41,625 bases of DNA. Source: Salinivenus sp. GTDB taxonomy: Bacteria; Bacteroidota; Rhodothermia; Rhodothermales; Salinibacteraceae. Numbering within the stretch: the first letter of the stretch is position 1; every line of letters starts with the position of its first letter. The stretch lies in the NCBI GenBank assembly GCA_018609755.1, contig JAHENZ010000087.1, positions 1-41,625 on the forward strand, in the 5' to 3' direction. The notes under the pieces are model-generated. The model was not told the origin of the DNA and searched no databases. It saw only the letters and a list, made by a program, of their open reading frames with translations. Both the position numbers and the translations under genes were made by a program. Below, one piece after another: positions 1,178-35,171 of the stretch.

Positions 1178-2878
1178 ATGAAAACCATCAGCACCCACCT
1201 CTCCTACTTCCTGAAGGACCGCGAGGTGAAGCGCAACCTGTCCATCCTGCTTCGGTATGTCGTCTTTTTGCTGGTGGTGATTGCCATCTTTACGGTGGTC
1301 TTCCACTTCATCATGCTCTACGTGGAGGGGGAGGAGCACTCCTGGATCACGGGGCTCTACTGGACGCTGACGGTGATGAGCACCCTCGGCTTCGGGGACA
1401 TCACGTTCCAGTCGGACATCGGACGCCTCTTCAGCGTGTTTGTCCTGCTGTCCGGCATCGTGATGCTGCTCATTGTGCTGCCGTTCGCATTCATTCGGTT
1501 CTTCTACGCGCCCTGGCTGGAGTCGCAGATCCAAAACCGAGCCCCCCGTTCCCTCCCCGCCGGCACGTCCAATCACGTCATTCTCACCAACTACGACACG
1601 ATTACACAGGGGGTGGTGCGGCGGCTGGAGCGGGACGAGATTCCGTACGTCGTGCTGGAGCCGGACCCCGTCACCGCCGCCAACCTGTACGTCGACGGGG
1701 TGCAGGTGGTGACCGGCGAGGTAGATGATAAGGCGACTTACGAGGCGGTACGGGCCAACCAGGCGCGGTTCGTACTGGCCAACCACGACGATCAGACAAA
1801 CACAAACGTCACGCTCACGGTGCGCGAGGTGGCCCCGGACGTTCTCCTCGCTGCCCTCGTGAGTGACGACGATTCGCAGGACATCCTGGAGCTGAGCGGG
1901 GCCACGCAGGTGCTCCCAATCAAGCGGTGGCTGGGAGAACAGCTGGCCACCCGCGTGACCGCCCAGTACGGGGAGGTTCATCCCATTGGACAGTACCGCG
2001 ACCTCCGTTTCGCGGAACTGCCGGTGCACCACACCAACCTGGAGGGACAAACCATCCGGGAGGCCCGGCTCCGCGAACGGACGGGTGCTACTGTCGTGGG
2101 GGGCTGGGAGCGCGGGACGCTGCACCCCGTGCGCCCGAACACGCCGCTGGAACCCACGAGCGTGCTGGTCGTGACGGGGACGACCGAGCAACTCCGGACC
2201 CTCAACCGACAAGTCATCTCGGACGAGGAGCTCACCGAGCCGGTCCTCGTCATCGGGGGCGGGAGCGTCGGCGGGGCGGCTGTGCGGGCCCTCCACGAGC
2301 GCGGCGTGCCCGTCCACCTCGTGGAACGGGAGCGCGCTCGCTGTGAGGCGCTTCACCCGTACTGCGCCGCCCAGTTCTGCGGCGACGCGGCCGAGTATTC
2401 CCTGCTGAAGGAGGCGGGAATCGAGACGGCCCCGTCCGTTCTGCTCACCACGCACGACGACGCCACGAACATTCATCTCGCCGCGTACTGCCGTCGCCTG
2501 AATCCGGAGATGCGCGTGGTAAGTCGCATCACCCACCAGCGCAACCTGGAGGCCATCCACCGCGCCGGGGCCGACTTCGTGCTCAGCTACGCCACGCTCG
2601 GGGTTGATGCGGTCTACTCGGCGCTCCGGGGGCGGCGCCTGGTGGTGCTCGGGGAGGGAGTCGACCTCTTCACGCGGGCCGTGCCGCCCTCGCTGCAGGG
2701 CACGACACTGGCCGAGAGCCGCGTGGGGGCGCGCACGGGCCTCAATGTCGTCGCCATCGAGGACGGGGACACGTTTGAGACCGAGCTCACCGGTGAGACC
2801 GTACTTCCGTCGGACGGGAATCTGCTGTTGATTGGATCCGACGAGCAAATGGATGCGTTCGCCGACCTCTACGAATAA
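1178..2878 (+). CDS. Two-TM K+ channel with tandem RCK (TrkA) domains
   Basis: A 566-residue inner-membrane potassium channel. Residues about 20-50 form the first membrane helix. A pore loop with STLGFGD (a TVGYG-type selectivity filter) and a second helix follow up to about residue 105. Two cytoplasmic RCK modules, each TrkA_N plus TrkA_C, fill the rest. The second RCK has a good dinucleotide motif (VIGGGSVGG). The first has VILTNYDTITQG and has lost the GxGxxG glycines, as in MthK/BK-like RCK1 domains. An in-frame ATG at 1112 would add 22 residues. I prefer 1178 because MKTISTHLSYFLKD leads directly into the first helix. The gene is first in a plus-strand series of K+ and amino-acid transporters. 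Direction of flux (leak or efflux) cannot be read from sequence. Confidence 0.88.
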   Translation: MKTISTHLSYFLKDREVKRNLSILLRYVVFLLVVIAIFTVVFHFIMLYVEGEEHSWITGLYWTLTVMSTLGFGDITFQSDIGRLFSVFVLLSGIVMLLIVLPFAFIRFFYAPWLESQIQNRAPRSLPAGTSNHVILTNYDTITQGVVRRLERDEIPYVVLEPDPVTAANLYVDGVQVVTGEVDDKATYEAVRANQARFVLANHDDQTNTNVTLTVREVAPDVLLAALVSDDDSQDILELSGATQVLPIKRWLGEQLATRVTAQYGEVHPIGQYRDLRFAELPVHHTNLEGQTIREARLRERTGATVVGGWERGTLHPVRPNTPLEPTSVLVVTGTTEQLRTLNRQVISDEELTEPVLVIGGGSVGGAAVRALHERGVPVHLVERERARCEALHPYCAAQFCGDAAEYSLLKEAGIETAPSVLLTTHDDATNIHLAAYCRRLNPEMRVVSRITHQRNLEAIHRAGADFVLSYATLGVDAVYSALRGRRLVVLGEGVDLFTRAVPPSLQGTTLAESRVGARTGLNVVAIEDGDTFETELTGETVLPSDGNLLLIGSDEQMDAFADLYE

Positions 2879-2934
2879 CGCGGGGTCCGGCCTCCGAGTC
2901 ATCACGTCCTCTTTTCACGGTTTCCGAAATTGTC

Positions 2935-4977
2935 GTGGCCGAACAAGCGGGCTTTGAGCGGAATGTCGGGCTCTTTATGGCCGTTATGATCGGCATCGGG
3001 GCCATGATGGGGCCGGGGGTCTTCGCTCTGCCCAGTGAGGTCGCCGGATCGGTGGGGCCGCTGGGCATTGTGGCCTATCTGTTGATGGGCGGGCTCACGC
3101 TCTTCACGGCCCTCAGCTACAGCGAGCTGGGGGCGGCCATTCCCATTGCCGGCGGGGGCTACTCGTTCGTGAGCCGTACGCTGCCCGACCCAGTGGCCTT
3201 TCTCACGGGCTGGTTCTTCTGGATCGGCAACACGCTGGCCTGCTCGCTCTACGTGGTCATCTTTGCGCTCACGATCAAGAACTACTTTTTCCCCGAGCTC
3301 AGTGTAATTCTCGTGGTGGTGGCGACGACGGCCGTGTTTACGGCCTCCAACTACCGCGGGCAGGCCGAGGCGCTGAAGGTGATCACGGTGATGAACATTG
3401 TCGAGCTGGTCATCCTGCTGGGGGTGGGGGTGCTCGGCGTGCTGCAGGTAGAGCCGGCCAACCTGGAGCCGTTTGCGCCGATGGGGCTGGGCCCGCTCAT
3501 TCCCACAATGGGCATGATCTACATCTCGTACGTGGGGTTCGACCTCATCACCGTAGCCGCCGAGGAAATCGTCGAACCGGCCAAAAACATTCCGCGGGCC
3601 ATTCTCATCACCCTCGGCGTGGGCGTCGGCATCTACGTGCTGCTCCTCTACGTGATGATGGGCGTCGTGAACTACGCCGACCTGGCGCAGACGAGCACGC
3701 CGTTTATCTTCGTGGCCGACCACCTCTTCGGTCCCTGGGGTCGCTGGGCGGGGGTGGTGGCGACGATCATGGCGAGTCTCTCGGCCTTCAGCGTCACGCT
3801 GGGCGCCAGCTCGCGCGTGCTCTTTGCGCTCGGCCGCGACGGCTACGTGCCCAGCGTCCTCGCGCGCCTGCATCCGACGCACAATACCCCGCACATTGCG
3901 CTCTTCGTGTGTGCCGGGCTCGTCACGATCCTCGGCGCGTCGGGCATCGTGCGGCTTCTGGCGTCGGCCAGCAGCTTCGGCTACCTGATCGCCATCGGCG
4001 TCGTCAACTACGCCGTCATCGCCCTTCACCAGAAGATGCCGGCCCTGCGGCGCCCGTTCAAGATTATCCTCTACCCGACGGTGCCCATTCTGGGCCTCGT
4101 CTCGTGCTGGTTCTTCGTCCCGACGCTGGAGGTCAACAGCCTGATTCTCGGAAGTGGACTGACGGTCGTCGGCGGCGTGCTTTATTTTCTGCAGCCGGGC
4201 AACCGGGACGTGTTTTCCGGACTCCCGGCCGTGCTCCATCGTCTACGCCTTCGCATTCAAGCCTACTGGAGGCCTCACATGAATGTCCTCATCATCGGCG
4301 GCGGGAGTCAGGGCCGCAACATTGCCGACCGCCTGCTTACGCAAGACGAGTTTCGGATGGTCTTTCGGTCGTCCGAGTACCAGCTCACCTTTATCGAACA
4401 GAACGAGGGGCGCTGCGAGGAGCTGGAGCAGCGCTACAACGTCCCCATCTTCCAGGGCGACGGCACCAAACAGGAGGTGCTGGAGCAGACCGAGCCCCAT
4501 AAGATGGACGTGGCCATCGCCGCGACCAACGACGACGAGCGCAACACGATCGTGGCGCTGCAGGCCAAGCGGCTCGGCATCGAACGGGTCATTGCCATTG
4601 CGCGAGACCCGGACTACGTGTCGCTGATGGAGGACAGCGGCATCGTGTGTATCAGCGCGCCCTACGCCACGGCGGCGATGGTGGAAAACTACCTGGACCG
4701 GCCCGGCGTGGCCGACCTCTTCGAAATCGAAACCGGGGTGGCCAGTCTCATCGACATGGAGGTGCCGGACGACGGACGGGTCGTTGGGCAGAAAATTCAG
4801 GACATCGACATCCCCGAGCAGTGCGTGGTGGCGGCCATCATCCGGGGAGAGGAGTTCGTCGTTCCGCGAGGAAACACGGAAGTGCACGGAGGCGATCACG
4901 TCGTGTTTGTGGGGCCCAGCGAGGCCATTCAGACGGCCCACGACATCTTTTCCGCCGAAGCGGAAGCGGCGGCGTAG
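2935..4977 (+). CDS. APC-family amino-acid permease fused to an RCK domain
   Basis: A 680-residue protein starting at GTG 2935, 56 bases after the channel gene. Residues 1-435 are an APC permease: the first helix carries the IGIGAMMGPGVFALP substrate-binding loop, and about 12 hydrophobic segments follow. Residues 449-570 form a TrkA_N Rossmann fold beginning NVLIIGGGSQGRNIA, and 590-675 a TrkA_C domain. The permease probably moves cationic or other amino acids across the inner membrane, gated by nucleotide binding to the tail. The RCK part begins exactly at an internal ATG (4279) preceded by GGAGG, so a separate soluble RCK product is conceivable. No Shine-Dalgarno is seen at 2935. The transport substrate is not predictable from sequence. 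Confidence 0.88.
   Translation: MAEQAGFERNVGLFMAVMIGIGAMMGPGVFALPSEVAGSVGPLGIVAYLLMGGLTLFTALSYSELGAAIPIAGGGYSFVSRTLPDPVAFLTGWFFWIGNTLACSLYVVIFALTIKNYFFPELSVILVVVATTAVFTASNYRGQAEALKVITVMNIVELVILLGVGVLGVLQVEPANLEPFAPMGLGPLIPTMGMIYISYVGFDLITVAAEEIVEPAKNIPRAILITLGVGVGIYVLLLYVMMGVVNYADLAQTSTPFIFVADHLFGPWGRWAGVVATIMASLSAFSVTLGASSRVLFALGRDGYVPSVLARLHPTHNTPHIALFVCAGLVTILGASGIVRLLASASSFGYLIAIGVVNYAVIALHQKMPALRRPFKIILYPTVPILGLVSCWFFVPTLEVNSLILGSGLTVVGGVLYFLQPGNRDVFSGLPAVLHRLRLRIQAYWRPHMNVLIIGGGSQGRNIADRLLTQDEFRMVFRSSEYQLTFIEQNEGRCEELEQRYNVPIFQGDGTKQEVLEQTEPHKMDVAIAATNDDERNTIVALQAKRLGIERVIAIARDPDYVSLMEDSGIVCISAPYATAAMVENYLDRPGVADLFEIETGVASLIDMEVPDDGRVVGQKIQDIDIPEQCVVAAIIRGEEFVVPRGNTEVHGGDHVVFVGPSEAIQTAHDIFSAEAEAAA
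4268..4281 (+). promoter_or_regulatory. Internal ribosome-binding site and ATG at RCK boundary
   Basis: GGAGG at 4268-4272 lies six bases before an in-frame ATG at 4279. This ATG is the first residue of the RCK part of the permease fusion. Most genes in this window show no Shine-Dalgarno, so its position at the domain border stands out. The same bases also encode Trp-Arg-Pro-His in the linker, so chance is possible. Confidence 0.35.
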
Positions 4978-5017
4978 CGGGGAACGCCAGATTCCCGGAT
5001 GTGAGTGGGGGGCGATG

Positions 5018-5536
5018 TCACGGAGCGTTCGACGGGGCCGGACGCTCGAACGTCATCCGTTCGTCGGGCACGGCCGGCCCTTCCACAACAATGCTGTCGT
5101 CGTAGACGGTAATGTTGGTTCGTGAACTTGCGAGGACCGACGACATGTCGGGTTTCATCGTAAAAGGTACCATGAGGCGGGGCCCGTCGCTGCCAGTGGG
5201 GTAGAGGCGGAGTTCGTGAGTGGAGCCTACCGAGTATTTCTCGAAGGCTTTCGTGACGAAGCCTCCCTCTAAGGCATTGGGCTACCACTGGGCCGAACGG
5301 GGCGTCTCGACGAGAAAGTTTTCAGAAACGGGACGCTCGTCCGTGTTATCCTCGAAGCCGACGTTGAGCAGGATGGCTCGATCGGACGTTGCTTCTGTAT
5401 CGGCGGTGGATTGGTTCGAGGCCTCGTCGGGGCCGCGCCCCAGGGGGCCGAAACCGATGGCGGCGACGCCGAGAACGAGGACGGCGGGGACGAGGAGAGA
5501 GCGAACGGGTGATCGACGAGTCCCGGTTGCGGGCAC
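5018..5536 (-). pseudogene. Membrane-anchored periplasmic protein interrupted by one TAG
   Basis: From ATG 5536 the minus strand encodes an arginine-containing N terminus and one membrane segment (LLVPAVLVLGVAAIGFG). A periplasmic part follows, reaching an in-frame TAG at 5282-5284. The same frame then continues for 87 more codons to a TGA at 5018-5020. That downstream stretch looks coding: EGGFVTKAFEKYSVGSTHEL, then RLYPTGSDGPRLMVPF and an acidic tail. The full frame would give 172 codons. It follows the DUF3124 gene by 46 bases on the same strand and may be co-transcribed with it. Possible explanations are a nonsense mutation, a sequencing error, or readthrough. I do not recognise the family. 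Confidence 0.6.
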
Positions 5537-5582
5537 GTGCGGAACGGTTTGTTGATGGTTGACGGGAATAGCCGAACGGGAG

Positions 5583-6206
5583 CTATGGACCCGTCTGTGA
5601 CCGAGAAAGGGAGTCGGGCCGAGCGGAGACCGGGACGCGATCCTCGTACAACACGCGGGCCGGACTCCGGAAGGAAATGCCCTGCGTCGACTCGGTGGTG
5701 ATCATGACGGTCTCTACGACCGGCGGCGGCACCGGCGTCTCGGCGTGCCACCGTACCAGGAAGTTGGCGCCGACGCCGCCTCGAATGTCGTCCTGCTCCA
5801 CGACAATGTACGTCGAGGCGAGAGGATCGAGTACACGCGTCGTGTCCAGATAGTCCCGCACGTGATTCCCACTGCTGTCGTAGTACTCGATCGCCGAGAG
5901 CTCGATGGGCGATTCCGGACTCGTGTTGCGGAGGCTGAGGGTCGTGGCGAGGTTCATCGACCGCTGGGCGTCCCGAATGTAGATGTGGGAGTAGGCCGGA
6001 ACGTAGAGAGTTTGGCTGCGGACGAGCTTCGGAGGCGTACCGCGGTCGTAGGAGGAAGGGGAAGTCGTCGATAGACTGTCGAGGTGGGAGGGCGGCGGCT
6101 GAACGTTGGGCGGGGCCGATTCGGGAGATTCGCAGGCCGTTCCGAGGATGCCCAGCAAGAGGCCGCCCACACAAAACAACAGAGAAGAGGGTCGAAGGAG
6201 GAGCAT
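5583..6206 (-). CDS. DUF3124 family lipoprotein
   Basis: A 207-residue exported lipoprotein. The chosen start at 6206 places a short hydrophobic signal (LLFCVGGLLLGILGTAC) and a lipobox cysteine near residue 27. A longer frame from 6356 would bury this signal in an arginine-rich extension. After a Pro/Ser-rich linker, residues about 65-190 match DUF3124 in pattern: YVPAYSHIYIRD, then SLRNTSPESPIELSAIEYYD, and DPLASTYIVVEQDD. The function of this family is unknown; it is a beta-rich periplasmic domain. The gene is divergent from trkA and upstream of the amber-interrupted gene. Its position within the ion-transport island suggests, but does not prove, a periplasmic role connected with salt adaptation. 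Confidence 0.75.
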   Translation of the reverse strand: MLLLRPSSLLFCVGGLLLGILGTACESPESAPPNVQPPPSHLDSLSTTSPSSYDRGTPPKLVRSQTLYVPAYSHIYIRDAQRSMNLATTLSLRNTSPESPIELSAIEYYDSSGNHVRDYLDTTRVLDPLASTYIVVEQDDIRGGVGANFLVRWHAETPVPPPVVETVMITTESTQGISFRSPARVLYEDRVPVSARPDSLSRSQTGP

Positions 6207-6441
6207 GCTGGGCAGATGAAAAAGACGGAACCATGCCGGATAGGGCCGAACATATCTCCGGAGGAGGCGGGCGGTTCCGGAGTCGGAAGCGGGCGTCCGT
6301 CGTGAGTTCTCTGTAAGAAGGAGAGAATCCCTTCTCCGACTGCCTTCGAGACGCATGTCGTTGCGGTGACCTCACACGTTCTCCGTTGCAGTTTCGGTCG
6401 TTGTCGATAATCTTTCGGCGTGGAGCTGTTTTTTTCCCGAC

Positions 6442-6456
6442 TAATGACCGTCATTA
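6442..6456. promoter_or_regulatory. Perfect inverted repeat abutting the trkA start codon
   Basis: TAATGAC (6442-6448), one central C, and GTCATTA (6450-6456) form a 7-1-7 inverted repeat that ends at the base before the trkA ATG (6457). It is AT-rich within a GC-rich region and is preceded by a T-run. The form suits a dimeric repressor operator; a small hairpin at the start codon is the alternative. No regulator gene is adjacent. Confidence 0.45.
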
Positions 6457-7797
6457 ATGAAAGTCGTCGTTATTGGCGTTGGGCAGGTGGGCCGCAGCGT
6501 GGCCCATGCGCTCGCCCAGGACCATCAGGTCGTTGCCGTCGACAAAAATCCCGAGCGTCTCGATTCGCTCCGGGCCGAGGCGGACGTGCTTACGTATGAA
6601 GGCAACGGCGCCAAGCTCGACGTCCTCCAGACGGCGGGCGTTCAGGACGCCGACCTCGTGATTGGAAGCACGAGCGACGACCGGAGTAACATTCTGATCT
6701 GCAGTACGGCCCGGGCCCTTCACGGGGACGCGTTCACCATTGCCCGCGTCGCCGAGACCGAATACCTCGCCACTTGGTCGCAGCTGCGCGAAGCGTTCAA
6801 CGTTGACTTTATGGTCGGGGCCGACCACCTTACGGCCCGAAGCATCGTGGAGGTGGCCGGTCTTCCGACGGCCCGGGACGTCGAATACTTCGGCCAGGGG
6901 CGAGTCGTCATGGCCGAGTTCACCATTCCCGAGGGGAGTCCGATTGCGGGGAAAACCGTACAGACGCTCGACTTGAGCGACGCCGTCAACCTCGTCGCCG
7001 TGTTCGACGACGATTCCATGGAGATCGTTCGGGGGTCCACCCGGCTGAAGGCCGACACTCGGCTGCTGGTGATCGGGCGGCCGAGTCAGGTCGAGAGGTT
7101 TGGGAGTCGGCTCGTCCCGAAGACGCAGCTGAAAGAGACGCGCCACGTCATGATTCTGGGCGGCGGCGAGATTGGATATCAGACCGCCCGCCTGCTCGAA
7201 CAGCGCGGCCTCCAACCGAGCCTCGTCGAGAGAGACCCGGACCGCGCACAGGAGCTCGCTCAGGAACTGCCCGACACGTTGGTGCTCCAGAACGATGCGA
7301 CGGACCCGGACTTTCTGCGCCGGGAGGGTGTATCGGACGCCGACCTCGTGGTCTCTGCCCTCACGCCGGACGAGCGGAATCTCCTTGCGTCGGTTCTGAG
7401 TCGCGAACTCGGCGCCAACAAGGTCCTTTCGGTGGTCCACAACGGCGCCTACGAATCGGTCTTTACGTGCAGCGGCATCGACGCTATCGTGAATCCGCGC
7501 CGGGAAGTCATCGAGGAAATCCTTCGTCACACTCGCGACCGGGACGTCGAGAAAATCACGTTCGTCGAGCACGAACGGGGCGAGGTGGTCGAAATTGAGC
7601 TCGACGCGGAGAGCCTGCTCGTGGGCCGTCCCCTCCAGGAGGCTGTGGACGAGGTTCCTCACAATTTCGTGCTCGGGGCGGTCGTTCGAGACGAGGACGT
7701 CCTCACGCCTCGGGGTCAGAGCGTCCTGCAGGCGGGTGACCACGTCGTCATGTTTGTCGACGCGGAGGTGGCCGACGAGGTGCTGGAGGCGATATAG
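6457..7797 (+). CDS. trkA: Trk potassium uptake regulatory subunit TrkA
   Basis: A 446-residue soluble protein with two RCK modules in the TrkA order. The first TrkA_N (residues 1-130) begins KVVVIGVGQVGRSVA with an intact GxGxxG, followed by a TrkA_C domain. The second TrkA_N begins HVMILGGGEIGYQTA at about residue 228, and a second TrkA_C ends the protein. Length is close to the family norm of about 458. TrkA binds NAD(H)/ATP on the cytoplasmic face and gates the TrkH channel. trkH lies 83 bases downstream on the same strand, so the pair is probably one operon. A 15-base inverted repeat sits directly before the ATG. No Shine-Dalgarno is visible. Confidence 0.95.
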   Translation: MKVVVIGVGQVGRSVAHALAQDHQVVAVDKNPERLDSLRAEADVLTYEGNGAKLDVLQTAGVQDADLVIGSTSDDRSNILICSTARALHGDAFTIARVAETEYLATWSQLREAFNVDFMVGADHLTARSIVEVAGLPTARDVEYFGQGRVVMAEFTIPEGSPIAGKTVQTLDLSDAVNLVAVFDDDSMEIVRGSTRLKADTRLLVIGRPSQVERFGSRLVPKTQLKETRHVMILGGGEIGYQTARLLEQRGLQPSLVERDPDRAQELAQELPDTLVLQNDATDPDFLRREGVSDADLVVSALTPDERNLLASVLSRELGANKVLSVVHNGAYESVFTCSGIDAIVNPRREVIEEILRHTRDRDVEKITFVEHERGEVVEIELDAESLLVGRPLQEAVDEVPHNFVLGAVVRDEDVLTPRGQSVLQAGDHVVMFVDAEVADEVLEAI

Positions 7798-7880
7798 CGC
7801 TGCCTGAATCGAGCGTTTCGACCCCCTCTGCGTTCGATCGAGCGACATTCTGAATTGACACATCAATTGAGTACCGCGAT

Positions 7881-9380
7881 ATGATAGCGGGTCGTCGATT
7901 TCGTCGGGTCAGCAGTGTTCTCGGGCCCACACTGAAGTGGTTTGCGGCTCTTTTCCTCGTACCGGGAGGGGTGGCACTGTACAACGGGGAGTCGGTGGGG
8001 CCCTTTCTCGTACCGCTGGTCGTGGCGTTTGGCATCGGGTGGGCGCTGGAGTGGATCGGGAGCGACAATGAGCTGACGGTCACCGACGGGTTTCTGCTCG
8101 TCACCCTCACCTGGATCGGGGTCTCGCTTCTGGGGAGCATTCCCTACCTGATGAGTGGGACGGGGAGCTTTGCCGTGCCCATCAACGCTATCTTCGAGAG
8201 CTTCAGCGGCTTTACGGCCACCGGGTCGACGATCCTGCTGGACATTTCCATCGAGAAGCACGGGACGGGCATCATGCTGTGGCGCCAGCTCACGCAGTGG
8301 ATTGCCGGCATGGGCATCCTCGCCCTGGCCGTGGCCATTCTGCCCCGCCTTTCGGCCGGGGGCGCCCAGTTTCTCGACGCCGAGGTGCCGGGGCCGCGCG
8401 TGGAGCGGTTGACGCCTCACATCGCAGAGACGGCCCGCCGCCTTTGGCTGTTGTACCTCGCGTGCTCGGCGGTGCTGTTTGTTCTCTTCCTGGGGGTGCA
8501 CTACGGGGGGCTCGCGCCCAACATGTCGCCGTATCAGGCTCTCGCCCACACGTTTACGACCATTCCGTCCGGCGGCTTCTCGCCGGAGGCGCGCAGCGTC
8601 GAGGCGTTCTCGCCCACGGTGCAGTGGATCATCATTCCGTTCATGTTCGTGGCCGCGATGAACTTTACGCTGCTGTGGCAAACGCTCTTTTCGGACCCGG
8701 CGGCCCCGGCCCGAAACACGGAGTTCAAGGTCTACCTCTCGATCTTTGCCGGGGGAAGTCTGCTGGTGAGCCTGATGCTCTGGGGCAACGGGCAGTTCGC
8801 ACGTCTTGAGGAGACGCTCCGGCAGGGCACGTTCCAGACGGCCACCCTGCTCACCACGACCGGCTACGCGAGCACCGACTTTGCCGTTTGGGGCGAGGAG
8901 GTGTTGGCGGTTCTGTTCGTACTCATGTTTGCCAGCGGGTGCGTGGGCAGCACCTCCGGCGGCCTGAAGCTCATGCGGTGGATCGTCGGGTTCAAAGTTA
9001 TTGGACGCGAGCTCTTTCAGATGATCCATCCGTCCTCGGTCCGGCCCATGTGGCTGGGGCGCCGCGCGGTAAAGGAGCCGGTGGTGCGGGGCATCCTGAT
9101 CGTGATTCTGGCCTACCTTCTGCTGGTCGTGGGGGGCACCGGGTTCGTGGCCGTGGACGCGCACCGGGTCGGAATCGACCTCACGCTCACGGAGGCCCTG
9201 TCGGGCACCCTGGCGGTGCTGGGCAACATTGGCCCGGGGTTTGGGACGTTGGGCCCGATGGGCGGGTTTGAGGCGCTTCCCGTCCCGACGAAGATCTTCA
9301 TGTGCCTGCTGATGGTGGCCGGGCGACTGGAGGTCATGACGTTCCTGGTGGTCCTGATGCCGGGCTACTGGCGGGGATAG
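7881..9380 (+). CDS. trkH: Trk potassium channel/transporter subunit TrkH
   Basis: A 499-residue polytopic inner-membrane protein, the K+-conducting partner of TrkA. Four pore-loop signatures of the Trk/Ktr/HKT fold are seen in order: GFTATGS near residue 108, TTIPSGGFS near 228, TTTGYAST near 325 and GNIGPGFG near 449. Each pore loop carries the filter glycine. The first helices (LKWFAALFLVPGGVALY onward) and the ending WRG agree with family length. It follows trkA closely. A hairpin at 9416-9444 may terminate the transcript. In halophiles using a salt-in strategy this system loads K+ into the cytoplasm, which fits the acidic proteins around it. Confidence 0.95.
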   Translation: MIAGRRFRRVSSVLGPTLKWFAALFLVPGGVALYNGESVGPFLVPLVVAFGIGWALEWIGSDNELTVTDGFLLVTLTWIGVSLLGSIPYLMSGTGSFAVPINAIFESFSGFTATGSTILLDISIEKHGTGIMLWRQLTQWIAGMGILALAVAILPRLSAGGAQFLDAEVPGPRVERLTPHIAETARRLWLLYLACSAVLFVLFLGVHYGGLAPNMSPYQALAHTFTTIPSGGFSPEARSVEAFSPTVQWIIIPFMFVAAMNFTLLWQTLFSDPAAPARNTEFKVYLSIFAGGSLLVSLMLWGNGQFARLEETLRQGTFQTATLLTTTGYASTDFAVWGEEVLAVLFVLMFASGCVGSTSGGLKLMRWIVGFKVIGRELFQMIHPSSVRPMWLGRRAVKEPVVRGILIVILAYLLLVVGGTGFVAVDAHRVGIDLTLTEALSGTLAVLGNIGPGFGTLGPMGGFEALPVPTKIFMCLLMVAGRLEVMTFLVVLMPGYWRG

Positions 9381-9415
9381 GACACTACTCTTCCTTCTTC
9401 TCCAACCCGGACATT

Positions 9416-9444
9416 CGCCCCCTGTGCCACTCGCACTGGGGGCG
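9416..9444 (+). terminator. Possible terminator hairpin after trkH
   Basis: CGCCCCC (9416-9422), a T, GTGC, a five-base loop, GCAC, a T and GGGGGCG (9438-9444) form an 11-pair stem with one T-T mismatch. The following bases are only mildly U-rich (gttctattt). It lies 36 bases after the trkH stop. Confidence 0.45.
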
Positions 9445-9600
9445 GTTCTATTTGGCATGGCTCCGCCCGTCCCCTGGCCTACGTTCTCGGACACGGGCGC
9501 AGGTGTGCCTTCTTTGGAAACAGACGAAACCACGAGAGTCGGTCTCCGGTAGCCCCTCCGTCCCGGCGTCTTCGTCGCTCACAATCCGGTCCGCCTGCTC

Positions 9601-11481: not shown

Positions 11482-11626
11482 CATCGGCAGATTTTGCCCT
11501 CCTCTCCATCTCTTAATAGGGCACCCTAGGCGTTACACCATTATCACCTTCGTCGAGTGGAGGAACCTACCGGAAAATTTGGCCTAGAGGTAGCTCCTGC
11601 CTTCATATACTACAGCCACGAGTCCC

Positions 11627-13759
11627 ATGCCTTCGGACTCCTCTCTCCAGAAGACCCTCACCCTCTACGACGTCTACGCGATCAGTACGGGGGCGATGTT
11701 TAGCTCCGGCTTCTTTCTGCTTCCGGGCATCGCGGCGGCGGAGACGGGGCCGTCCGTGATTCTCGCGTACCTCGTGGCGGGACTCCTCATTTTGCCGTCC
11801 ATGTACAGCATGGCGGAACTGTCCACGGCCATGCCCAAGGCGGGCGGCACCTACTACTTCCTCGATCGAAGCCTGGGCCCCCTGGCCGGCACCGTGGGGG
11901 GGCTGGGGACGTGGCTGGCCCTCGTCTTCAAGAGTGCGTTTGCCCTCATCGGGATGGGGGCGTATCTGGCCATTTACGCCGATGTCCCTATCAAGCCGCT
12001 CGCCGCGGCCCTCGCGGTGGCCTTCGGTGTGCTCAACGTCGTCGGCGCCAAGGAGAGCAGCTGGCTGCAGCGCATTCTGGTGACAGTCCTGGTCGCAGTG
12101 CTCGCCTTTTACGCCGCGCAGGGCGTGATGTCCGTCTGGGGCGGCACCTCGGCAGCCGGGGGAGCTGTCGGGGAGTTTTCCCCCTTCTTTACGGAGGGCG
12201 CGCGCGGCTTTCTCGCCACGATCGGCATCGTATTCGTGTCGTACGCGGGGCTTACGAAGGTCGCGAGCGTGGCCGAGGAGGTACAGAACCCGGACCGCAA
12301 CATTCCGCTGGGCATGGGGTTGTCGCTGCTGACCGCCACGGCCCTGTACGTCATCGGGGTCGCCATCATGGTGGCGGTGCTGCCCGCAGCAGATCTCCAC
12401 GCCGACCTTACGCCGGTCTACACCTCCGGCGAGGTCTTTTTCGACTGGCTTCCGTACTCGATTGGACCGATTCTCATCGTCGTTGCGGCCGTTGCGGCCT
12501 TTGCCTCCACCGGCAACGCGGGCATCATGTCGGCCTCGCGCTACCCCCTGGCCATGGCACGGGACAAGCTGCTCCCCGACGGATTCGCGAAAATTGGGCG
12601 CTTCAAGACGCCGACCCGCTCGATCGTGGTGACGACGGCCCTCATGCTCGTCATCATCTTCGTGCTGTCGGAGGAGGGGGTGGCCAAGCTGGCGAGTGCG
12701 TTTCAACTCTTGATCTTTGCCCTCCTCAACTTCGCGGTGATCGTGATGCGGGAGAGCGAGATTCCGTCCTACGCTCCCGGCTATCGCTCGCCGCTCTATC
12801 CCTGGATGCAGGTGGCGGGCATCGCCATTCCGTTTTTCCTGATCTCGGAGATGGGGACGCTGGCCATCGTCTTCACCGGCGTGGTGATTCTCTTCGGCAT
12901 CGGGTGGTACTTCTACTACGCCCGCACGGTGCCCCGGGAGGGCGCCATCTTCCACCTCTTTGCCCGCCTCGGAAAGCAGCGGGACGACGGCCTCGACCGC
13001 GAGCTGCAAACGATTCTGGAAGAGAAAGGCGTGGGGCATGACACGGCCTTCGACCGGCTCGTCGCCCGGTCCGAGGTCATTCACCTCGACGATCCTGTGC
13101 CCTACGAACAGGTGGTCGAGGACGTGTCCGGCCGGCTCGCCGACGAGTTCGGAATCTCCACGGAGACACTCAAGCACGGCTTTCTGGAAGGGGCGCCCTA
13201 CAGTGCTGTGTCTGTCACCCACGGCGCGGCCCTGCCGTACTGCCGACTCGACGGCATTGAGGACCCAAAGATGGTCATGGTCCACTGCCAGTCCGGTATT
13301 TGCGTCGACCTGAAGGATGACATCGAAGACCTTGACCTTTCCGAGCCGGTGTACGCCTTCTTCTTCCTGGTGAGCCCAAAGGACGATGAGGGCGAACACC
13401 TCCGCACACTTGCGACCCTCGCCAATCGGGTCGACGAGGAGCAATTCCTCGTCGAGTGGCGTGCGGCGACCAACGAGCAGGAGGCCAAGGAAAGCCTGTT
13501 GCACCACGAGCGGTACCTTACGCTCCATTTGCTTACGGGCACCAGCACGGAAGAAATCATTGGGCGCCGGGTCGAGGATCTCAACCTGCCGGCAGGAGTG
13601 CTCGTGGCGCTCATCCGGCGCGACGAGCACATCACCGTCCCCAACAGGGAATCGACACTGCAGGAGGGCGACCGCGTGACGATTATCGGCAATCCGGCGG
13701 GCATCGACCGGCTCTACGAGCTCTATCGCTCGGGAGAGCGAGAGGGCGTGGTGCAGTAG
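11627..13759 (+). CDS. APC permease fused to degenerate PTS-EIIA and RCK_C domains
   Basis: A 710-residue protein. Residues 1-440 are an APC permease of about 12 helices. Residues about 460-605 resemble a fructose/nitrogen-type EIIA domain. The phosphohistidine motif, normally A-x-P-H, reads AALPYCRL with tyrosine 538 in place of histidine, so phosphotransfer is unlikely. Residues about 640-700 form a TrkA_C domain (LPAGVLVALIRRDEHITVPN). The permease core is clearly paralogous to the APC-USP protein encoded at 16997-19228: both have GPSVILA and SAFALxGxGAY at matching positions. The tails therefore appear to have been swapped. Likely role: amino-acid uptake or exchange gated by ligand binding. 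The EIIA assignment is from motif layout and length. Confidence 0.82.
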   Translation: MPSDSSLQKTLTLYDVYAISTGAMFSSGFFLLPGIAAAETGPSVILAYLVAGLLILPSMYSMAELSTAMPKAGGTYYFLDRSLGPLAGTVGGLGTWLALVFKSAFALIGMGAYLAIYADVPIKPLAAALAVAFGVLNVVGAKESSWLQRILVTVLVAVLAFYAAQGVMSVWGGTSAAGGAVGEFSPFFTEGARGFLATIGIVFVSYAGLTKVASVAEEVQNPDRNIPLGMGLSLLTATALYVIGVAIMVAVLPAADLHADLTPVYTSGEVFFDWLPYSIGPILIVVAAVAAFASTGNAGIMSASRYPLAMARDKLLPDGFAKIGRFKTPTRSIVVTTALMLVIIFVLSEEGVAKLASAFQLLIFALLNFAVIVMRESEIPSYAPGYRSPLYPWMQVAGIAIPFFLISEMGTLAIVFTGVVILFGIGWYFYYARTVPREGAIFHLFARLGKQRDDGLDRELQTILEEKGVGHDTAFDRLVARSEVIHLDDPVPYEQVVEDVSGRLADEFGISTETLKHGFLEGAPYSAVSVTHGAALPYCRLDGIEDPKMVMVHCQSGICVDLKDDIEDLDLSEPVYAFFFLVSPKDDEGEHLRTLATLANRVDEEQFLVEWRAATNEQEAKESLLHHERYLTLHLLTGTSTEEIIGRRVEDLNLPAGVLVALIRRDEHITVPNRESTLQEGDRVTIIGNPAGIDRLYELYRSGEREGVVQ

Positions 13760-13959
13760 CGAATGGGCATGGGAGAGGAGAGCGTGGGGAAGCGGGCGTG
13801 CGGACGATGAGGCGTGGAGGGACAAGCGTATGAGGGAAAGCGACCGGAGACGGTCGTCCTTTAGACATTTTTACGTCGGCGGCGGATCGTTTCGGGCGGA
13901 CGGATCTATCCCTGATGCATCATTCGGCTTGTCTCGTTTCACAAACCCACTTCCTGTCT

Positions 13960-14727
13960 ATGCCCCTTTCCGATTCCGTTTGGCGTTTCGTCTCGGCCGC
14001 GGTCCTCTTCGTCGCTGTCGGGATTGGCCTTACGACGACCGCTCACGCACAAATTTCGGCCGATCGCCCTGGATTCGGGGACGGCACCACCACCGTTGCC
14101 CCGGGGACGTTTCAGGCCGGCCTCGGCTATGCCTTCAACGGAAACGGCGTCAACAACCACGAGCTCGGCCAGCTGCTCCTCCGCTTCGGCGTAACGCCCG
14201 GCCTTGAACTGCGGGGCAGCGTCGGCTCGTACGTCGTCAACGAGTCGCCCTTCGACAACGGGTACGCCGGCTCGGCTGTGGGAACGAAGGTACGCCTCTT
14301 TCAGAATGATGTCTCGGCTCTGAGCGGTGTGGCCACGCTGGGCCTGCCGACCGGAACGGGCGTGTACGACAGCGTCGACGACCGGGCGCGACAAGAGTTG
14401 AAGCTGGCCTTCGACGGGGCACTTGGCGAGGACATCACCCTCAGCATCAACGGAGGGACGAGCTTCTACTACGCGTCGGGCGTGCAGGACGACAGAGCCG
14501 TCGAAATTCTGTTCATTCCTACTCTGTCTTTCGCCATGACGGAGACGACCGGGGGGTACGTCGGCTATGCCGGCTTTTACGACGACGGGCCCAACACGAA
14601 CTGGGTCGAAGGAGGTGTCACCTTCCTCACCGGTACCGACACGCAACTCGATCTGAATACAGGCCTTCAGATCGACGACAACGGGGATCGCTTCTTCTTC
14701 GGTGCTGGCGTGGCACATCGATTTTAG
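13960..14727 (+). CDS. Outer-membrane transporter-like protein (MetA-pathway phenol degradation family type)
   Basis: A 255-residue exported protein. The start at 13960 gives a good signal peptide ending TTTAHAQ; an upstream ATG at 13915 would put 15 extra residues before it. The mature part opens with [20 protein letters not shown] and continues as amphipathic beta strands, ending in a terminal aromatic (AHRF). This pattern is typical of the transporter-like outer-membrane beta-barrels annotated as 'MetA-pathway of phenol degradation'. Despite the name, no link to phenol is implied. The gene at 15102 is a close paralogue. Their position amid inner-membrane transporters suggests an outer-membrane pore for the same solutes, which is an inference. 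Confidence 0.72.
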   Translation: MPLSDSVWRFVSAAVLFVAVGIGLTTTAHAQISADRPGFGDGTTTVAPGTFQAGLGYAFNGNGVNNHELGQLLLRFGVTPGLELRGSVGSYVVNESPFDNGYAGSAVGTKVRLFQNDVSALSGVATLGLPTGTGVYDSVDDRARQELKLAFDGALGEDITLSINGGTSFYYASGVQDDRAVEILFIPTLSFAMTETTGGYVGYAGFYDDGPNTNWVEGGVTFLTGTDTQLDLNTGLQIDDNGDRFFFGAGVAHRF

Positions 14728-15101
14728 AGACTGTTTTGATTTTTGGATCGTGCTCATTCACGAGGTCGCTCCGTTTTCCCCAGGAGACTCGCGAGGACTG
14801 TGAGAGCGACGAACGGTTGGAATCGACCAAATTGCAGTCGTCACGCGAGACTCATTACGCCAGCGTGTGAAATCAAAGCAGTCTCTTAGCGTCCCAATGA
14901 AGGAGGAAAGGGATCTTCCGGAATGGAAATCTCCCGTCGAGGAGGAGAACCGCCACCTCCCTATTTTTGGGTATAATATTTATTTTACTCGTTCGTTAGG
15001 ATGTTGTGGTGCGAGCTCGCATGAGTACAATCGAATTCATGCGCACGCACATCTCGAGAAATAGATCGGTGTTGCATTTCATCCACAACCCTCGAACGAC
15101 C
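14728..15101. other. Intergenic region with AT-rich promoter-like stretch
   Basis: A 374-base gap between the two paralogous outer-membrane protein genes. TATAAT at 14972-14977 lies in an AT-rich island (14965-14987) that is exceptional here. It could be the -10 element of the promoter for the gene at 15102, though no matching -35 box is clear. The remainder shows no gene or strong repeat. Confidence 0.45.
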
Positions 15102-15935
15102 ATGATTGATTACACTCGATTCTCTGCATGGCTGGGAGTGACAGCAGCGATTCTTTTTCTACCTCTGAGCGTTCCGTTCTCTGCACACGCCCAGATTTCT
15201 GCCGATCGCCCCGGCTTCGGAACCGGGAGTGCAACGGTAGGCGCCGGGACGTTCCAGGCCGAATTGGGCTATCAGTTTCGGTCCATTTGGATACCAGGCG
15301 TCGGTGATGGATTCGCCACCGGAGCCAACACCCATGAGATTGGCCAAGGACTCCTCCGGTACGGCATAACCGACGCCTTCGAAGTCCGAGCGGGCCTGAA
15401 TTCTTATGTTTTAATCAGTGGTAGCAATAGCGGCTATAGGGATTACTATAGTGGGACTTCGCTTGGGGCAAAAGTGCGCCTCTTCCAGACCCCGACGATG
15501 CGTCTGAGTGGTCTTGCGACGCTTGATCTGCCCACTCAGCTTCCGGACGCCCCCAATGATCGGGCCCGGCAGGACCTGAGGCTTGCGTTCGATACGGATC
15601 TCGGCGATCGGTTTCAGCTCGCGATCAATGGTGGCACAAGCTTCTACTATTCCGCAGGAATCCAAAACGATCGAGGTGTGGAGTGGCTCTTCATCCCGAC
15701 CCTCTCTGCCGATCTCACCCCGACGCTAGGAGCCTACGTGGGATACGCCGGGTTTTATTCAGTTCGCGACGGCATCGATTCTGACGAGTCCTTTCACAGC
15801 AGGGACTGGGTGGAGGGCGGCGCTACCTATCGCCTCACGCCCGACACTCAGCTCGACCTAAACGTCGGGACGCGGCTCGGAACTGACAACCTTTCCGACC
15901 TCTCGATCGGCATTGGCGTCTCCAAGCGGTTCTAG
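15102..15935 (+). CDS. Outer-membrane transporter-like protein, paralogue
   Basis: A 277-residue exported protein. The start at 15102 yields a signal peptide ([21 protein letters not shown]); upstream starts at 15006 add an unlikely leader. The mature N terminus, [20 protein letters not shown], and the block [20 protein letters not shown] match the upstream paralogue closely. It is about 20 residues longer through insertions in loop regions (for example [16 protein letters not shown]). It ends GVSKRF, a typical outer-membrane C-terminal phenylalanine. An AT-rich promoter-like stretch lies about 130 bases upstream, so it may be expressed separately from its neighbour. The two genes appear to be a tandem duplication. 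Confidence 0.72.
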
Positions 15936-16015
15936 CGTGTGGATTTTGGAATTCGGATTGGGGATTTTCGAGGTTGTGTCCGTCAACTTCCTCCCCATAC
16001 TCTCCCCTCCGATTC

Positions 16016-16864
16016 GTGCACATTGACGCAGAAACCCAGGTCGTTACGCTCCTCGGCCACCCGGTCGAGCATTCCCTCTCCCCCACCATCCACAACACCG
16101 CGTTTCAGGCACAGGGCGTGAACGCGATTTACGTGGCCACGCCGGTGCGGCCGGAGGTGCTGGCCGACGGCGTGGCCGGCCTGCGGGCATTGCAGTTTCT
16201 GGGGGCCAACGTGACGGTCCCGCACAAGGAGGCGGTGCGTCCGCTGCTGGACGACGTGTCGGAACGGGCCGCGGCGGTGGGAGCCGTGAACACGATCGTG
16301 CGCGACAATGACACGCTCCGCGGGGACAATACAGACGTAGAGGGCTTTCTGACCCCCTTGAGAGACACGGTCGGCGATTCGCTTGCAGGAGCCCCGATGG
16401 TGATCTTTGGGGCGGGTGGAGCGGCACGGGCCGTCGTGTACGGCCTGCTCGACCACTATGCGCCCGAACGCCTCACGCTCGTCGCCCGGCGCCCAGAACA
16501 AGCCGAGGCGCTCGCGGCGGACCTGGAGGGCTACGACCCGCAGGACGCCCTCCGCACAGCCACGTTCGACGATGCGACGACCGCCGTTCGGGAGAGTCGG
16601 CTCCTTGTCAATGCGACGCCGGTGGGCATGTCCCCAAACACGGACGCCACGCCCTGGCCGGACGCGGACGACTTCGGGACCGACCAGGTGGCGTACGATC
16701 TCGTCTACACCCCGGAGGACACCCGCTTTCTACAAGACGCATCGGCCCGGGGCGCGACCCCAATCGGCGGGCTCGACATGCTGGTGGAGCAGGCAGCGGC
16801 CTCCTATCGGCAGTGGACGGGTCGGGAGATGCCTCGGGACATCGTGTATGAGGCGCTCCGATGA
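16016..16864 (+). CDS. aroE: Shikimate dehydrogenase
   Basis: A 282-residue enzyme that reduces 3-dehydroshikimate to shikimate with NADPH in aromatic amino-acid synthesis. The substrate-binding start [16 protein letters not shown], catalytic lysine 71 in VTVPHKEAV, and aspartate 107 in NTDVEGF are all present. The NADP-binding loop GAGGAARAV follows. The C-terminal [19 protein letters not shown] is also typical. I chose GTG 16016 ([10 protein letters not shown]) because it gives the family length; a GTG at 15974 would add 14 residues of low-complexity sequence. The gene is a metabolic island within the transporter cluster. It ends 132 bases before the convergent APC-USP gene, with a heptamer repeat between them. 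Confidence 0.93.
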
Positions 16865-16914
16865 CCTCAGGCCAGTTTCGCAGAGGAGAAGCCTCTCCGG
16901 TTGAGGAGATAGTG

Positions 16915-16995
16915 CGTGAGTCGTGATGCGTGAAAAGACGTCCTCAGTGTATTTCGGCAGCAGTCCGTATCACGCTTCACGTATCACGCTTCACG
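16915..16995. repeat. CGTGANN heptamer array, inverted
   Basis: Three tandem heptamers CGTGAGT, CGTGATG and CGTGAAA occupy 16915-16935. After a 32-base gap, four heptamers in the opposite orientation (TATCACG, CTTCACG, TATCACG, CTTCACG) occupy 16968-16995, ending one base before the stop codon of the convergent permease gene. The arms can pair as an imperfect hairpin. A related array lies at 39635-39693. It could serve as a bidirectional terminator or be a mobile or expansion-prone repeat. Confidence 0.7.
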
Positions 16996-16996
16996 G

Positions 16997-19228
16997 TCAG
17001 AACACGTATCGCTCGATGAGACGGCGGAGGGGCTTGTTCTGGCGCGGGCGCTGCGGACGGACCAGGAGCACGTTGCAGGGCAGGGCCTGCACGAGGTCCG
17101 TCGTGCGATTGGAGAAGAGCAGGTCGCGGAGACGCGAGCGCGCCAGTTTCCCAACGATCGCGAGGTCGGCGTCGCCCGTTGCGTCCACGAGGCCATTCGT
17201 CACGTCGTCGGTACAGATGATGTTGCTCGTCGTGACACTGTCGCAGTGGTCGGCCAGCCGGTCGTGGAAGGCCTTCACCGTGTGTACTTCGTCGTCCGAG
17301 GCATCCGACGGCATGGCCGTGAGGAAACGAATCTGGGCATCGTGTGCCCGGGCGAGAGCGTCGGCGATAAAGGCCTTGAGTGGTCCGTAGGGGGCGCGGG
17401 GGAGGAGGATGACGATTTCGTCGAGGGCATTGGCCCGTCCATCGGAAGCCGCCTGTGGGACCAGAAATGCAATTTCGCAGGACGCCTCTCGGACAAACCA
17501 GTCGGTATCAATACCGAGCAGTTTGGGGCGCCAGTGCCCGGGGTCAACAGTGCCCAGCATGAGCCGCACGTCCCGCGTTCGGGCGAAATGCAGTGCCGCA
17601 CGCCCTGGATCGTGGCAGACGATCTCATGTGCCTCAGTGGGCACCCCATCCGTTGCCTTGAGGGTCTTCACCTGTTCCTCGAAGTGTTGATCGGCCTCTG
17701 TCGTTCGATCCGCCGCGTCGGGCAAACTTACCTGCTCAGGCACTGGTTCAAACCGCGTCGCGAACACACGCCCCTTCCAGGATTGCGCAATGTCGCCCCC
17801 CATCGATAGGATCTCTCGGGTCGCGTGCTCCGGGGTGTCCTCCGAGCAGACGACCATCACGTTCCCAATCTCCATCGAAAAGGTCTCATGCATTCGGGCA
17901 AACAGCGACGTGCGCATCGATTGCCGGAGCGCGTTGAGGGTAACGCCCTCCCGATCGGTACGCGCGTCTCCGTAGCCCCAATACCACACGACTCCCCCCG
18001 CAATGATGCCGGCGGCGCCCAGAATGGGAATCCAGCCCATCTGCGTGAGCATGAGCAGGCTCCCCAGGATCCCAAATGCCTGCACCCATGGGTATCCCGG
18101 GCTTCGGAATGCCGGATCGTAATCTTCAACGTCGCTTTCGCGAAAGGCGATCAGGGCGACGTTCGTGAAGACGAAAATTAAGATCTTAAACGCACTCGCG
18201 AGCTTCGCCAATTCAAGGACCGGCACAAACGCAATCAGCAAAAGGAGGAGCCCGCCCGTGATCAAAATGGAGCGGGTTGGGGTCCGAAACTTATCACTGA
18301 TGACCCGGAAACTCTCCGGCGCCAGCTGATCTCGGCTCATCGCCAGGGGAAAGCGGGAGGACGACAGCACCCCAGCGTTGGCCATGCTGACCAACGCGAG
18401 AACGGCGATGATCGAGATCCCAATTTTGCCGCCCGTGCCGATCATTTGGCCCGTGGCGTCCGCGAGTGGGGTCAGGCTCGAGTGAAGTACCTCGGGCGGG
18501 GTCACGCCCACCACGACGAACGTGACGATGACGTACACAGGAATCATGAGGCCGAGGGACACGAGAATGCCGAGCGGAAGGTTGCGGTCGGGCTCCTCCA
18601 CTTCCTCGGCAATGCTCGCGATCTTCGTGACGCCCGCGTACGAGACGAAGACGAAGCCGGTGGCGGCCAAAAATCCACTCGCTCCTTTTGAAAAGAACGG
18701 CTGAAACTGCTCGGGTTGCACCCGGATGACGCCTCCGGCCCCAAACATGACGAGGACAAACAGGGCAAAGGACACGAGCAGGGCCTGAAAGTGCCCGGAC
18801 TGCTTCACGCCGAGAATGTTGACCAGAATGATGACGCCTCCCAGGCCCAGGCTCACCAGCTTGAGCTCGGCGGCGGGGAGGGGAAGAGCCAATGCGAAGT
18901 ACGCGCCGAGTCCCACGAGGGCGAACGCGCTCTTGAACACGAGCGAGAACCAAGCCCCCAATCCAGCAATCGTCCCCATGAGCGGCCCCATGGACCGGTC
19001 GATGTACAGGTACGTGCCGCCCGACTCCGGCATGGCCGTCGCCATCTCGGCCTTTGAGAGGGCTGCCGGCATCACGAGAAGCCCTGCAAGCAAAAAGGCG
19101 AGGATGACCGACGGGCCCCCCTTGGCCGCTGCCAGGCCGGGGATTACGAAGAGCACCCCCATCATCGCCCCAATGCTCACGGTGATCGTCGTATACAGCC
19201 CGAGGTCGCGTTCTAAGTGTTTTGGCAC
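16997..19228 (-). CDS. APC permease fused to tandem UspA-like domains
   Basis: A 743-residue protein. Residues 1-435 are a 12-helix APC amino-acid permease (VSIGAMMGVLFVIPGLAAAKGG at the substrate loop), highly similar to the core of the EIIA-fused permease at 11627. Residues about 450-600 and 605-725 form two universal-stress-protein-like domains. The first begins IGNVMVVCSEDTPEHA; the second DEIVILLPRAPYGPLKAF and ends with LAIVGKLARSRL and LPCNVLLVRP. The usual GxxG-x9-G(S/T) ATP motif is degenerate in both. Similar permease-USP fusions are common in haloarchaea. Likely role: amino-acid transport modulated by adenine nucleotides. It is transcribed convergently to aroE. Confidence 0.88.
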   Translation of the reverse strand: MPKHLERDLGLYTTITVSIGAMMGVLFVIPGLAAAKGGPSVILAFLLAGLLVMPAALSKAEMATAMPESGGTYLYIDRSMGPLMGTIAGLGAWFSLVFKSAFALVGLGAYFALALPLPAAELKLVSLGLGGVIILVNILGVKQSGHFQALLVSFALFVLVMFGAGGVIRVQPEQFQPFFSKGASGFLAATGFVFVSYAGVTKIASIAEEVEEPDRNLPLGILVSLGLMIPVYVIVTFVVVGVTPPEVLHSSLTPLADATGQMIGTGGKIGISIIAVLALVSMANAGVLSSSRFPLAMSRDQLAPESFRVISDKFRTPTRSILITGGLLLLLIAFVPVLELAKLASAFKILIFVFTNVALIAFRESDVEDYDPAFRSPGYPWVQAFGILGSLLMLTQMGWIPILGAAGIIAGGVVWYWGYGDARTDREGVTLNALRQSMRTSLFARMHETFSMEIGNVMVVCSEDTPEHATREILSMGGDIAQSWKGRVFATRFEPVPEQVSLPDAADRTTEADQHFEEQVKTLKATDGVPTEAHEIVCHDPGRAALHFARTRDVRLMLGTVDPGHWRPKLLGIDTDWFVREASCEIAFLVPQAASDGRANALDEIVILLPRAPYGPLKAFIADALARAHDAQIRFLTAMPSDASDDEVHTVKAFHDRLADHCDSVTTSNIICTDDVTNGLVDATGDADLAIVGKLARSRLRDLLFSNRTTDLVQALPCNVLLVRPQRPRQNKPLRRLIERYVF

Positions 19229-35016: not shown

Positions 35017-35171
35017 GGCAATGGATCGTGGTGGAGAACCGGTCGATAGACGTTCCCAAACAAGGAGCCTCGCCCGGCAAAGGCAAGAGGGAACACCCGC
35101 CTCCGGCAACCGGTGCCGGACACGACCCCTTCTGGCAACGCTCTCCCCCCCTACCCACGCAACACAGTCCC

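Follow-up and report, generated by a model that had tools for sequence, protein, structure and literature searches.

Loss of the phosphorylation-site histidine from a permease-fused EIIA domain in the hypersalinity island of Salinibacteraceae

The stretch of DNA analysed here (the window, 41,625 nucleotides) is the entire contig C87 of a Salinivenus sp. draft genome of 5.0 Mb in 328 contigs, which shares its genus-level group with Salinibacter. Up to position 19,228 it carries a cluster of ion and amino-acid transport genes, and our subject is one of these, an amino-acid permease that continues into an EIIA(Ntr)-like domain and an RCK_C domain (APC-EIIA-RCK_C). The locus is the hypersalinity island known from Salinibacter, here carried by a related species, and the island itself is not new. 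A sequence-only reading had listed six transport proteins, several of them fused to sensor-type domains, and an MgtE at the edge. Pfam and NCBIfam domain calls found every transporter and tail it named, including an MgtE that is real and truncated by the contig end, along with genes it had left out: a DUF3124 lipoprotein-like gene, two MetA-type outer-membrane proteins and aroE. The features are as follows.

2..556, minus strand: MgtE N-terminal domain, gene cut at the contig end (Pfam MgtE_N 4.4e-8)
1178..2878, plus strand: K+ channel, Ion_trans_2-RCK_N-RCK_C-RCK_N-RCK_C (Pfam Ion_trans_2 1.3e-12, TrkA_N twice, TrkA_C twice)
2935..4977, plus strand: amino-acid permease, APC-RCK_N-RCK_C (Pfam AA_permease_2 1.1e-41, TrkA_N 6.6e-21, TrkA_C 3.5e-16)
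5583..6356, minus strand: DUF3124 lipoprotein-like frame (Pfam DUF3124 1.4e-47)
6457..7797, plus strand: TrkA (NCBIfam NF007034, 643 bits against a cut-off of 344)
7881..9380, plus strand: TrkH (Pfam TrkH 6.3e-48)
9601..11481, plus strand: CPA cation/proton antiporter with a degenerate RCK_N (Pfam Na_H_Exchanger 3.8e-38, TrkA_N 1.3e-10)
11627..13759, plus strand: amino-acid permease, APC-EIIA_2-RCK_C (Pfam AA_permease 2.5e-45, PTS_EIIA_2 1.1e-10, TrkA_C 6.3e-16)
13106..13498, plus strand: EIIA_2-like domain of that permease, residues 494-624, a putative pseudo-EIIA (Pfam, alignments)
13238..13240, plus strand: codon TAC, Tyr538, at the EIIA(Ntr) phospho-His position (alignment to 1a6j and 2a0j)
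13547..13723, plus strand: RCK_C (TrkA_C) domain, residues 641-699 (Pfam 6.3e-16)
13915..14727, plus strand: MetA-type outer-membrane protein 1, flanking (Pfam Phenol_MetA_deg)
15006..15935, plus strand: MetA-type outer-membrane protein 2 (Pfam Phenol_MetA_deg 2.3e-13)
15974..16864, plus strand: aroE, the conserved right border of the island (Pfam Shikimate_dh_N 1e-28)
16997..19228, minus strand: amino-acid permease APC-USP with a tandem USP-like tail, past aroE on the opposite strand (Pfam AA_permease_2 1.5e-44, Usp 2e-7)

This clustering is far beyond chance, with three of the seven APC genes of the genome and four of the ten frames that bear TrkA_N lying within 18 kb, or 0.36% of the draft (binomial P for at least three of seven APC genes of about 2e-6 by hand calculation). 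Long open reading frames on the opposite strand within the island gave zero Pfam matches, and the repeats of the island are short and mostly fall within coding domains. The EIIA- and USP-fused permeases have a common APC core (47% identity) and different tails, as had been claimed. The NCBIfam model for CAT/ApcT-type transporters, TIGR00909, scores an APC permease of the island at 200 bits against a curated cut-off of 557, and the best solved relatives are CAT4 and GkApcT. By the APC-EIIA-RCK_C protein, the nearest named genomes are Salinivenus lutea and S. iranica (90%), S. altiplanensis (89%) and Longimonas halophila (79%).

The EIIA domain of the window belongs to the EIIA-2/Ntr sequence family, passing the PTS_EIIA_2 cut-off and matching EIIA(Ntr) 1a6j in phmmer at E 0.0013. 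Phosphoryl transfer by EIIA(Ntr) uses the His of an [IL]PH motif, and Tyr538 occupies this phospho-acceptor position both in the Pfam match and when aligned to 1a6j. Tyr occupies the column in all 20 Salinibacteraceae APC-EIIA copies (19 genomes), while the other families of the order have His in 45 of 45 APC-EIIA copies. EIIA domains on CPA antiporters carry His in 18 of 18 cases, three of them within Salinibacteraceae. The Salinibacteraceae APC-EIIA tails form a single clade (support 100/100), and at five tail positions this clade and the others are nearly fixed for different residues: K465E, G526S, P529S, H538Y and R553H. The last four fall in a span of 28 residues surrounding the active site, and R553 is replaced by His in 19 of 19 aligned Salinibacteraceae copies. 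The ratio of nonsynonymous to synonymous substitution rates is 0.05-0.10 in the pseudo-EIIA, compared with 0.07-0.08 in the membrane core and 0.10-0.26 in RCK_C. The pseudo-EIIA is under strong purifying selection and is not decaying. Judged by its residues, the permease-fused EIIA of Salinibacteraceae is a pseudo-domain, and within the order the loss of His is confined to this clade.

The relay that would phosphorylate such a domain is encoded in these cells. Among 21 genomes searched, EI was found in 20 and so was HPr; five stand-alone EIIAs (from Salinibacter-type, Longimonas and other genomes of the family) retain GLGLPH or GLALPH, and the Salinibacteraceae genomes that were read have a stand-alone EIIA with its His intact. 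As a separate observation, two small-genome Salinibacteraceae (G059 and G061; L139:115-2727) have a CPA with a His-bearing EIIA, and full-length APC-EIIA-RCK_C was not found in them.

The fused permease extends well beyond the island. Full-length homologues occur across much of the order, and 71 of 395 genomes of the phylum match at E 1e-60, a minority of these over the permease core alone. In most of the regions examined outside Salinibacteraceae, no K+ transporter was detected beside the gene. The idea of a halophile invention confined to the island is rejected on this distribution, and the protein, by its homologues, is old and not specific to the salt-in island. In the tree of APC cores, the EIIA type is a single clade, and its sister is an APC-USP clade mixing haloarchaea and Salinibacteraceae. 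The APC-EIIA tails of Salinibacteraceae are twice as acidic as the others, with an excess of 9.9 acidic residues per 100 against 5.0; an acidity comparison over the whole locus is uninformative because spurious opposite-strand frames of the DNA, which is rich in guanine and cytosine, enter the set. We found no report of the APC-EIIA fusion in open-licence literature.

Loss of the phospho-His recurs in a second family of the same class, f18, where 12 of 49 copies lack it, nine having Tyr and three Phe. These Tyr/Phe copies form a separate, well-supported clade, and all replacements of the phospho-His that we saw are aromatic. By this phylogeny the f18 clade, which is one of paralogues, lost its His independently of Salinibacteraceae. 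On a tree built without the active-site columns, three changes are needed and one copy inside the f18 clade reads His again. In three f18 copies, Phe at the phospho-His site is accompanied by Gln at 553. Independent events in which the loss of His could be correlated with changes of the pocket number three pairs, too few for a test. Three f18 genomes (L165, L166 and L179) hold an APC-EIIA-RCK_C tandem of one His copy and one Tyr/Phe copy with Gln at the Arg553 position, and by their residues these tandems are possibly active/pseudo pairs.

The neighbouring CPA antiporter would have changed by another route. The window CPA, with its degenerate RCK_N, and its relatives without an EIIA-RCK_C tail form a single clade (100/99) among tail-bearing CPAs, and the simplest reading of the tree is that this clade lost the tail. 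If so, both partners of an old CPA/APC pair would have been cut off from the relay in two different ways. A CPA lies beside APC-EIIA-RCK_C in three further Salinibacteraceae genera (G053, G054 and G074).

The tails of the island had been presented as nucleotide-binding sensors, but their motifs do not allow them to be taken for active ones: the EIIA lacks its phospho-His, and the GxGxxG motif is kept in four of six island RCK_N domains and absent from two. It is intact in the APC-RCK permease (2935..4977), whereas the K+ channel has it in the second RCK_N and not in the first. The ATP motif G-2X-G-9X-G(S/T) is absent from both USP halves of the window APC-USP, the tail of which is predicted to adopt a tandem USP fold (mean predicted local distance difference test, pLDDT, of 74.6; Foldseek E 4e-8 to tandem USPs). 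The search for signs of coordination gave none: no regulator gene is among the genes identified in the island, an exact-pattern search gave no consensus sigma-70 promoter, and Rfam found in the island neither a c-di-AMP (cyclic di-AMP) riboswitch nor another convincing family, one MicL match below threshold being judged chance. Since c-di-AMP is known to act on K+ transport through RCK_C and USP domains as its receptors (PMC10243994; PMC8214093), a diadenylate cyclase is present in 26 of 26 genomes searched and c-di-AMP influences osmoregulation in Haloferax (PMC6741144), c-di-AMP is plausibly the leading candidate ligand of the RCK_C and USP tails.

We hypothesize, at somewhat better than even confidence, that the island permease of Salinibacteraceae has been cut off from the phosphorelay, with gating left to RCK_C and the EIIA kept as a scaffold. 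On this view the amino-acid permeases of the island retain sensing of the RCK or USP type. The central gene would encode an amino-acid permease of the CAT/ApcT-like kind that carries both an EIIA(Ntr)-like domain and an RCK_C. In relatives the His-bearing EIIA could plausibly be phosphorylated by the resident EI-HPr relay, in a regulatory manner like that of the nitrogen phosphotransferase system, and through this ancestral input nitrogen or phosphoenolpyruvate status may have set amino-acid flux. Along the Salinibacteraceae stem, His would have changed to Tyr along with three neighbouring pocket residues. Because the His is lost together with these residues and the adjacent antiporter clade has no EIIA-RCK_C tail, the permease most likely no longer receives the relay signal. 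The preserved EIIA fold may then serve as a scaffold fixed in an unphosphorylated-like state. In several bacteria, EIIA(Ntr) makes contact with the K+ sensor KdpD when it is not phosphorylated (PMC9239096), so an EIIA locked in such a state beside K+ transporters could reasonably act as a regulator. The RCK_C tail, plausibly binding c-di-AMP or a nucleotide, would be left to gate transport, and could hold the permease in step with the adjoining RCK-gated K+ channel, Trk and antiporter. The coordination of the island by salinity that had been proposed is an inference. A broader version, which we hold tentatively and at a little less than even confidence, is that relay control through fused EIIA-RCK_C is widespread in the phylum and has been switched off at least twice by aromatic replacement with the domain kept, turning the Salinibacteraceae permease into a relay-independent, RCK-gated part of a K+ island.

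Several points weigh against this hypothesis. Structure prediction of the EIIA-RCK_C tail from 11 homologues failed (mean pLDDT 42.7), and the fold rests on sequence. Another His could serve as acceptor: the Salinibacteraceae copies displayed have His533, five residues before Tyr538, and the other conserved His of the EIIA (591) is retained. No paper that we found demonstrates phosphorylation of a fused EIIA in any species. The loss of His is seen in f18 as well, and the link to a salt-in lifestyle is a correlation drawn from few independent events. Finally, loss of the CPA tail is a parsimony argument on a tree the deepest forks of which are open.

The alternative that survives best, though we regard it as doubtful, is that the USP and EIIA/RCK tails all sense c-di-AMP and that the island is under c-di-AMP control, as Gram-positive KtrA, CpaA and KdpD are. 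The receptor domains, the ubiquitous cyclase and the Haloferax osmoregulation that make c-di-AMP a candidate ligand all speak for it, as does a Haloarcula hispanica plasmid whose Trk/APC-USP cluster contains a diadenylate cyclase gene; however, the Rfam search of the island returned no c-di-AMP riboswitch, neither USP half of the window permease has the ATP motif, and the cyclase occurs throughout the order, island or not. Unlikely is a neutral account in which salt-related transporters simply accumulated, the tails are ordinary, and Tyr was tolerated where EIIA phosphorylation had never mattered in the family. It draws on the literature's silence about phosphorylation of a fused EIIA and on the scarcity of detected K+ transporters beside homologues outside Salinibacteraceae, but it sits badly with a His invariant in 45 of 45 APC and 18 of 18 CPA copies, with a loss that coincides with clustered pocket changes, with strong purifying selection on the EIIA and with gene clustering above chance. 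Very unlikely, in our estimation, is a relay input that was re-sited and not lost, with the Salinibacteraceae EIIA still phosphorylated at His533, His553 or Tyr538: His533 and His591 are available, all 19 aligned copies have gained His at 553 and EI and HPr are there to act, yet EIIA(Ntr) is established to use the [IL]PH His, and the three f18 copies with Phe and Gln allow neither phosphohistidine nor phosphotyrosine at those positions. New here are an EIIA tail that selection has preserved although it lacks the phosphorylation site, the recurrence of this loss, the antiporter clade with no EIIA-RCK_C tail, and an APC-USP gene that is haloarchaeal-type, not the orthologue of that in S. ruber, and devoid of the ATP motif in both USP halves. 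The general idea of sensor-fused permeases in a salt island becomes a testable claim at the level of single residues: a fused regulatory domain has shed its phosphorylation site in 20 of 20 copies of a halophilic family whose cells still encode the relay.

The APC-USP permease has a history of its own. That of the window shares 52.5% full-length identity with a Haladaptatus halobius plasmid gene located between Trk genes. The window gene and those of G068 and G074 group with Haladaptatus and Halorientalis. In S. ruber, S. altiplanensis, S. lutea and G072, by contrast, the APC-USP gene of the island clusters with other haloarchaea. A single clade of all Salinibacteraceae APC-USP is rejected by the approximately unbiased test (p-AU 3e-54), for a group picked after the first tree was seen and with haloarchaea sampled from plasmids only. 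By this phylogeny the window gene is haloarchaeal-type and not orthologous to that of S. ruber, and because the single clade is rejected and two haloarchaeal groupings appear, at least two transfers or replacements are indicated. Different Salinibacteraceae thus hold island APC-USP genes from different haloarchaeal-type lineages. A comparison with haloarchaea, which the sequence-only reading had proposed, gave the same pairing of Trk and APC-USP genes there. The Haloarcula hispanica plasmid mentioned above, pHH126, has a related APC permease with TrkH, a TrkA C-terminal protein, a USP and the diadenylate cyclase (L156:2595-3146).

Elsewhere in the window lie a UvrA-like protein of 976 amino acids (25794-28724), adjoined by two large metallopeptidase-like genes (29013-31649, DUF5117/DUF4953; 32473-35109, M14), and a minus-strand protein that combines two PKD domains with an OmpA domain (22748-23707).

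The closest known system is the S. ruber hypersalinity island, reportedly described by Mongodin et al. in 2005. We mapped the island in relatives with domain hidden Markov models and tblastn, taking one compared genome to be S. ruber M31. The proposed link to that island was right in substance, with a homologous, partly collinear locus in the same genus-level group where Trk K+ uptake and CAT-type amino-acid transporters occur together, and a cluster unique to the source genome is rejected by the presence of the locus in relatives. TrkA (76%), TrkH (85%), APC-EIIA-RCK_C (89%), DUF3124 (70%) and aroE (72%) are identical between S. ruber and the window to the degree given. Gene content has been conserved across S. 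ruber, S. altiplanensis and relatives, whereas gene order, the expectation of the sequence-only reading, stood only in part and is a mosaic. S. altiplanensis (G062) has the channel, APC-RCK, DUF3124, TrkA, TrkH, two CPA-RCK, APC-USP, APC-EIIA-RCK_C and aroE, and S. ruber has a block in the same order (TrkA, TrkH, CPA, CPA, APC-USP, APC-EIIA-RCK_C, aroE). The left half of the window matches S. altiplanensis, its channel being 83% identical to the counterpart there, and the right half matches G068, with CPA, APC-EIIA, outer-membrane protein, aroE and APC-USP on the other strand. The channel-RCK and APC-RCK pair is found in the window, S. altiplanensis and G072; S. ruber has only a distant channel/RCK match (29%), and its APC-USP differs from that of the window in belonging to another haloarchaeal-type clade. 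DUF3124 is a conserved island member (68-76% identity in relatives), accompanying the island in several mapped Salinibacter-type genomes, and MetA-type outer-membrane protein 1 adjoins APC-EIIA in G068, G065 and G054 as well. Because contig C213 of the source genome (L158, 2663-7242) carries a CPA-RCK and APC-USP pair that in relatives is part of the same island, the island is probably larger than the window contig shows and was probably split by the assembly. Two later papers refer to the S. ruber hypersalinity island and its transporters (PMC5624296, PMC13384644).

The Haladaptatus halobius APC-USP likewise lies beside TrkH/TrkA and lacks the ATP motif, but is archaeal and plasmid-borne. KCC/NKCC and prokaryotic cation-chloride cotransporters also join an APC fold to USP-like tails, and Foldseek matches the window tail to KCC C-termini; they differ in substrate family, and the cation-chloride cotransporter Pfam tails fall below threshold in the window APC-USP. 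Prokaryotic cation-chloride cotransporter/SLC12-type proteins were seen in the island region of G063 (L059:4935-7310) and directly after APC-EIIA in G045 (L067:12075-14303). The CPA-RCK_N-EIIA-RCK_C antiporters of the order end in the same EIIA-RCK_C module and adjoin APC-EIIA-RCK_C in G045 and G018, but unlike the window APC-EIIA they retain the phospho-His; in most Salinibacteraceae genomes read, the CPA ends after RCK_N and a short extension. Lastly, EIIA(Ntr) of the nitrogen phosphotransferase system (E. coli 1a6j, Neisseria 2a0j) is a homologous domain, whereas the window EIIA is fused between permease and RCK_C and has Tyr for the phospho-His. Because E. coli EIIA(Ntr) is reported to regulate TrkA (Lee et al. 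2007), an EIIA fused to RCK_C resembles that partnership made permanent.

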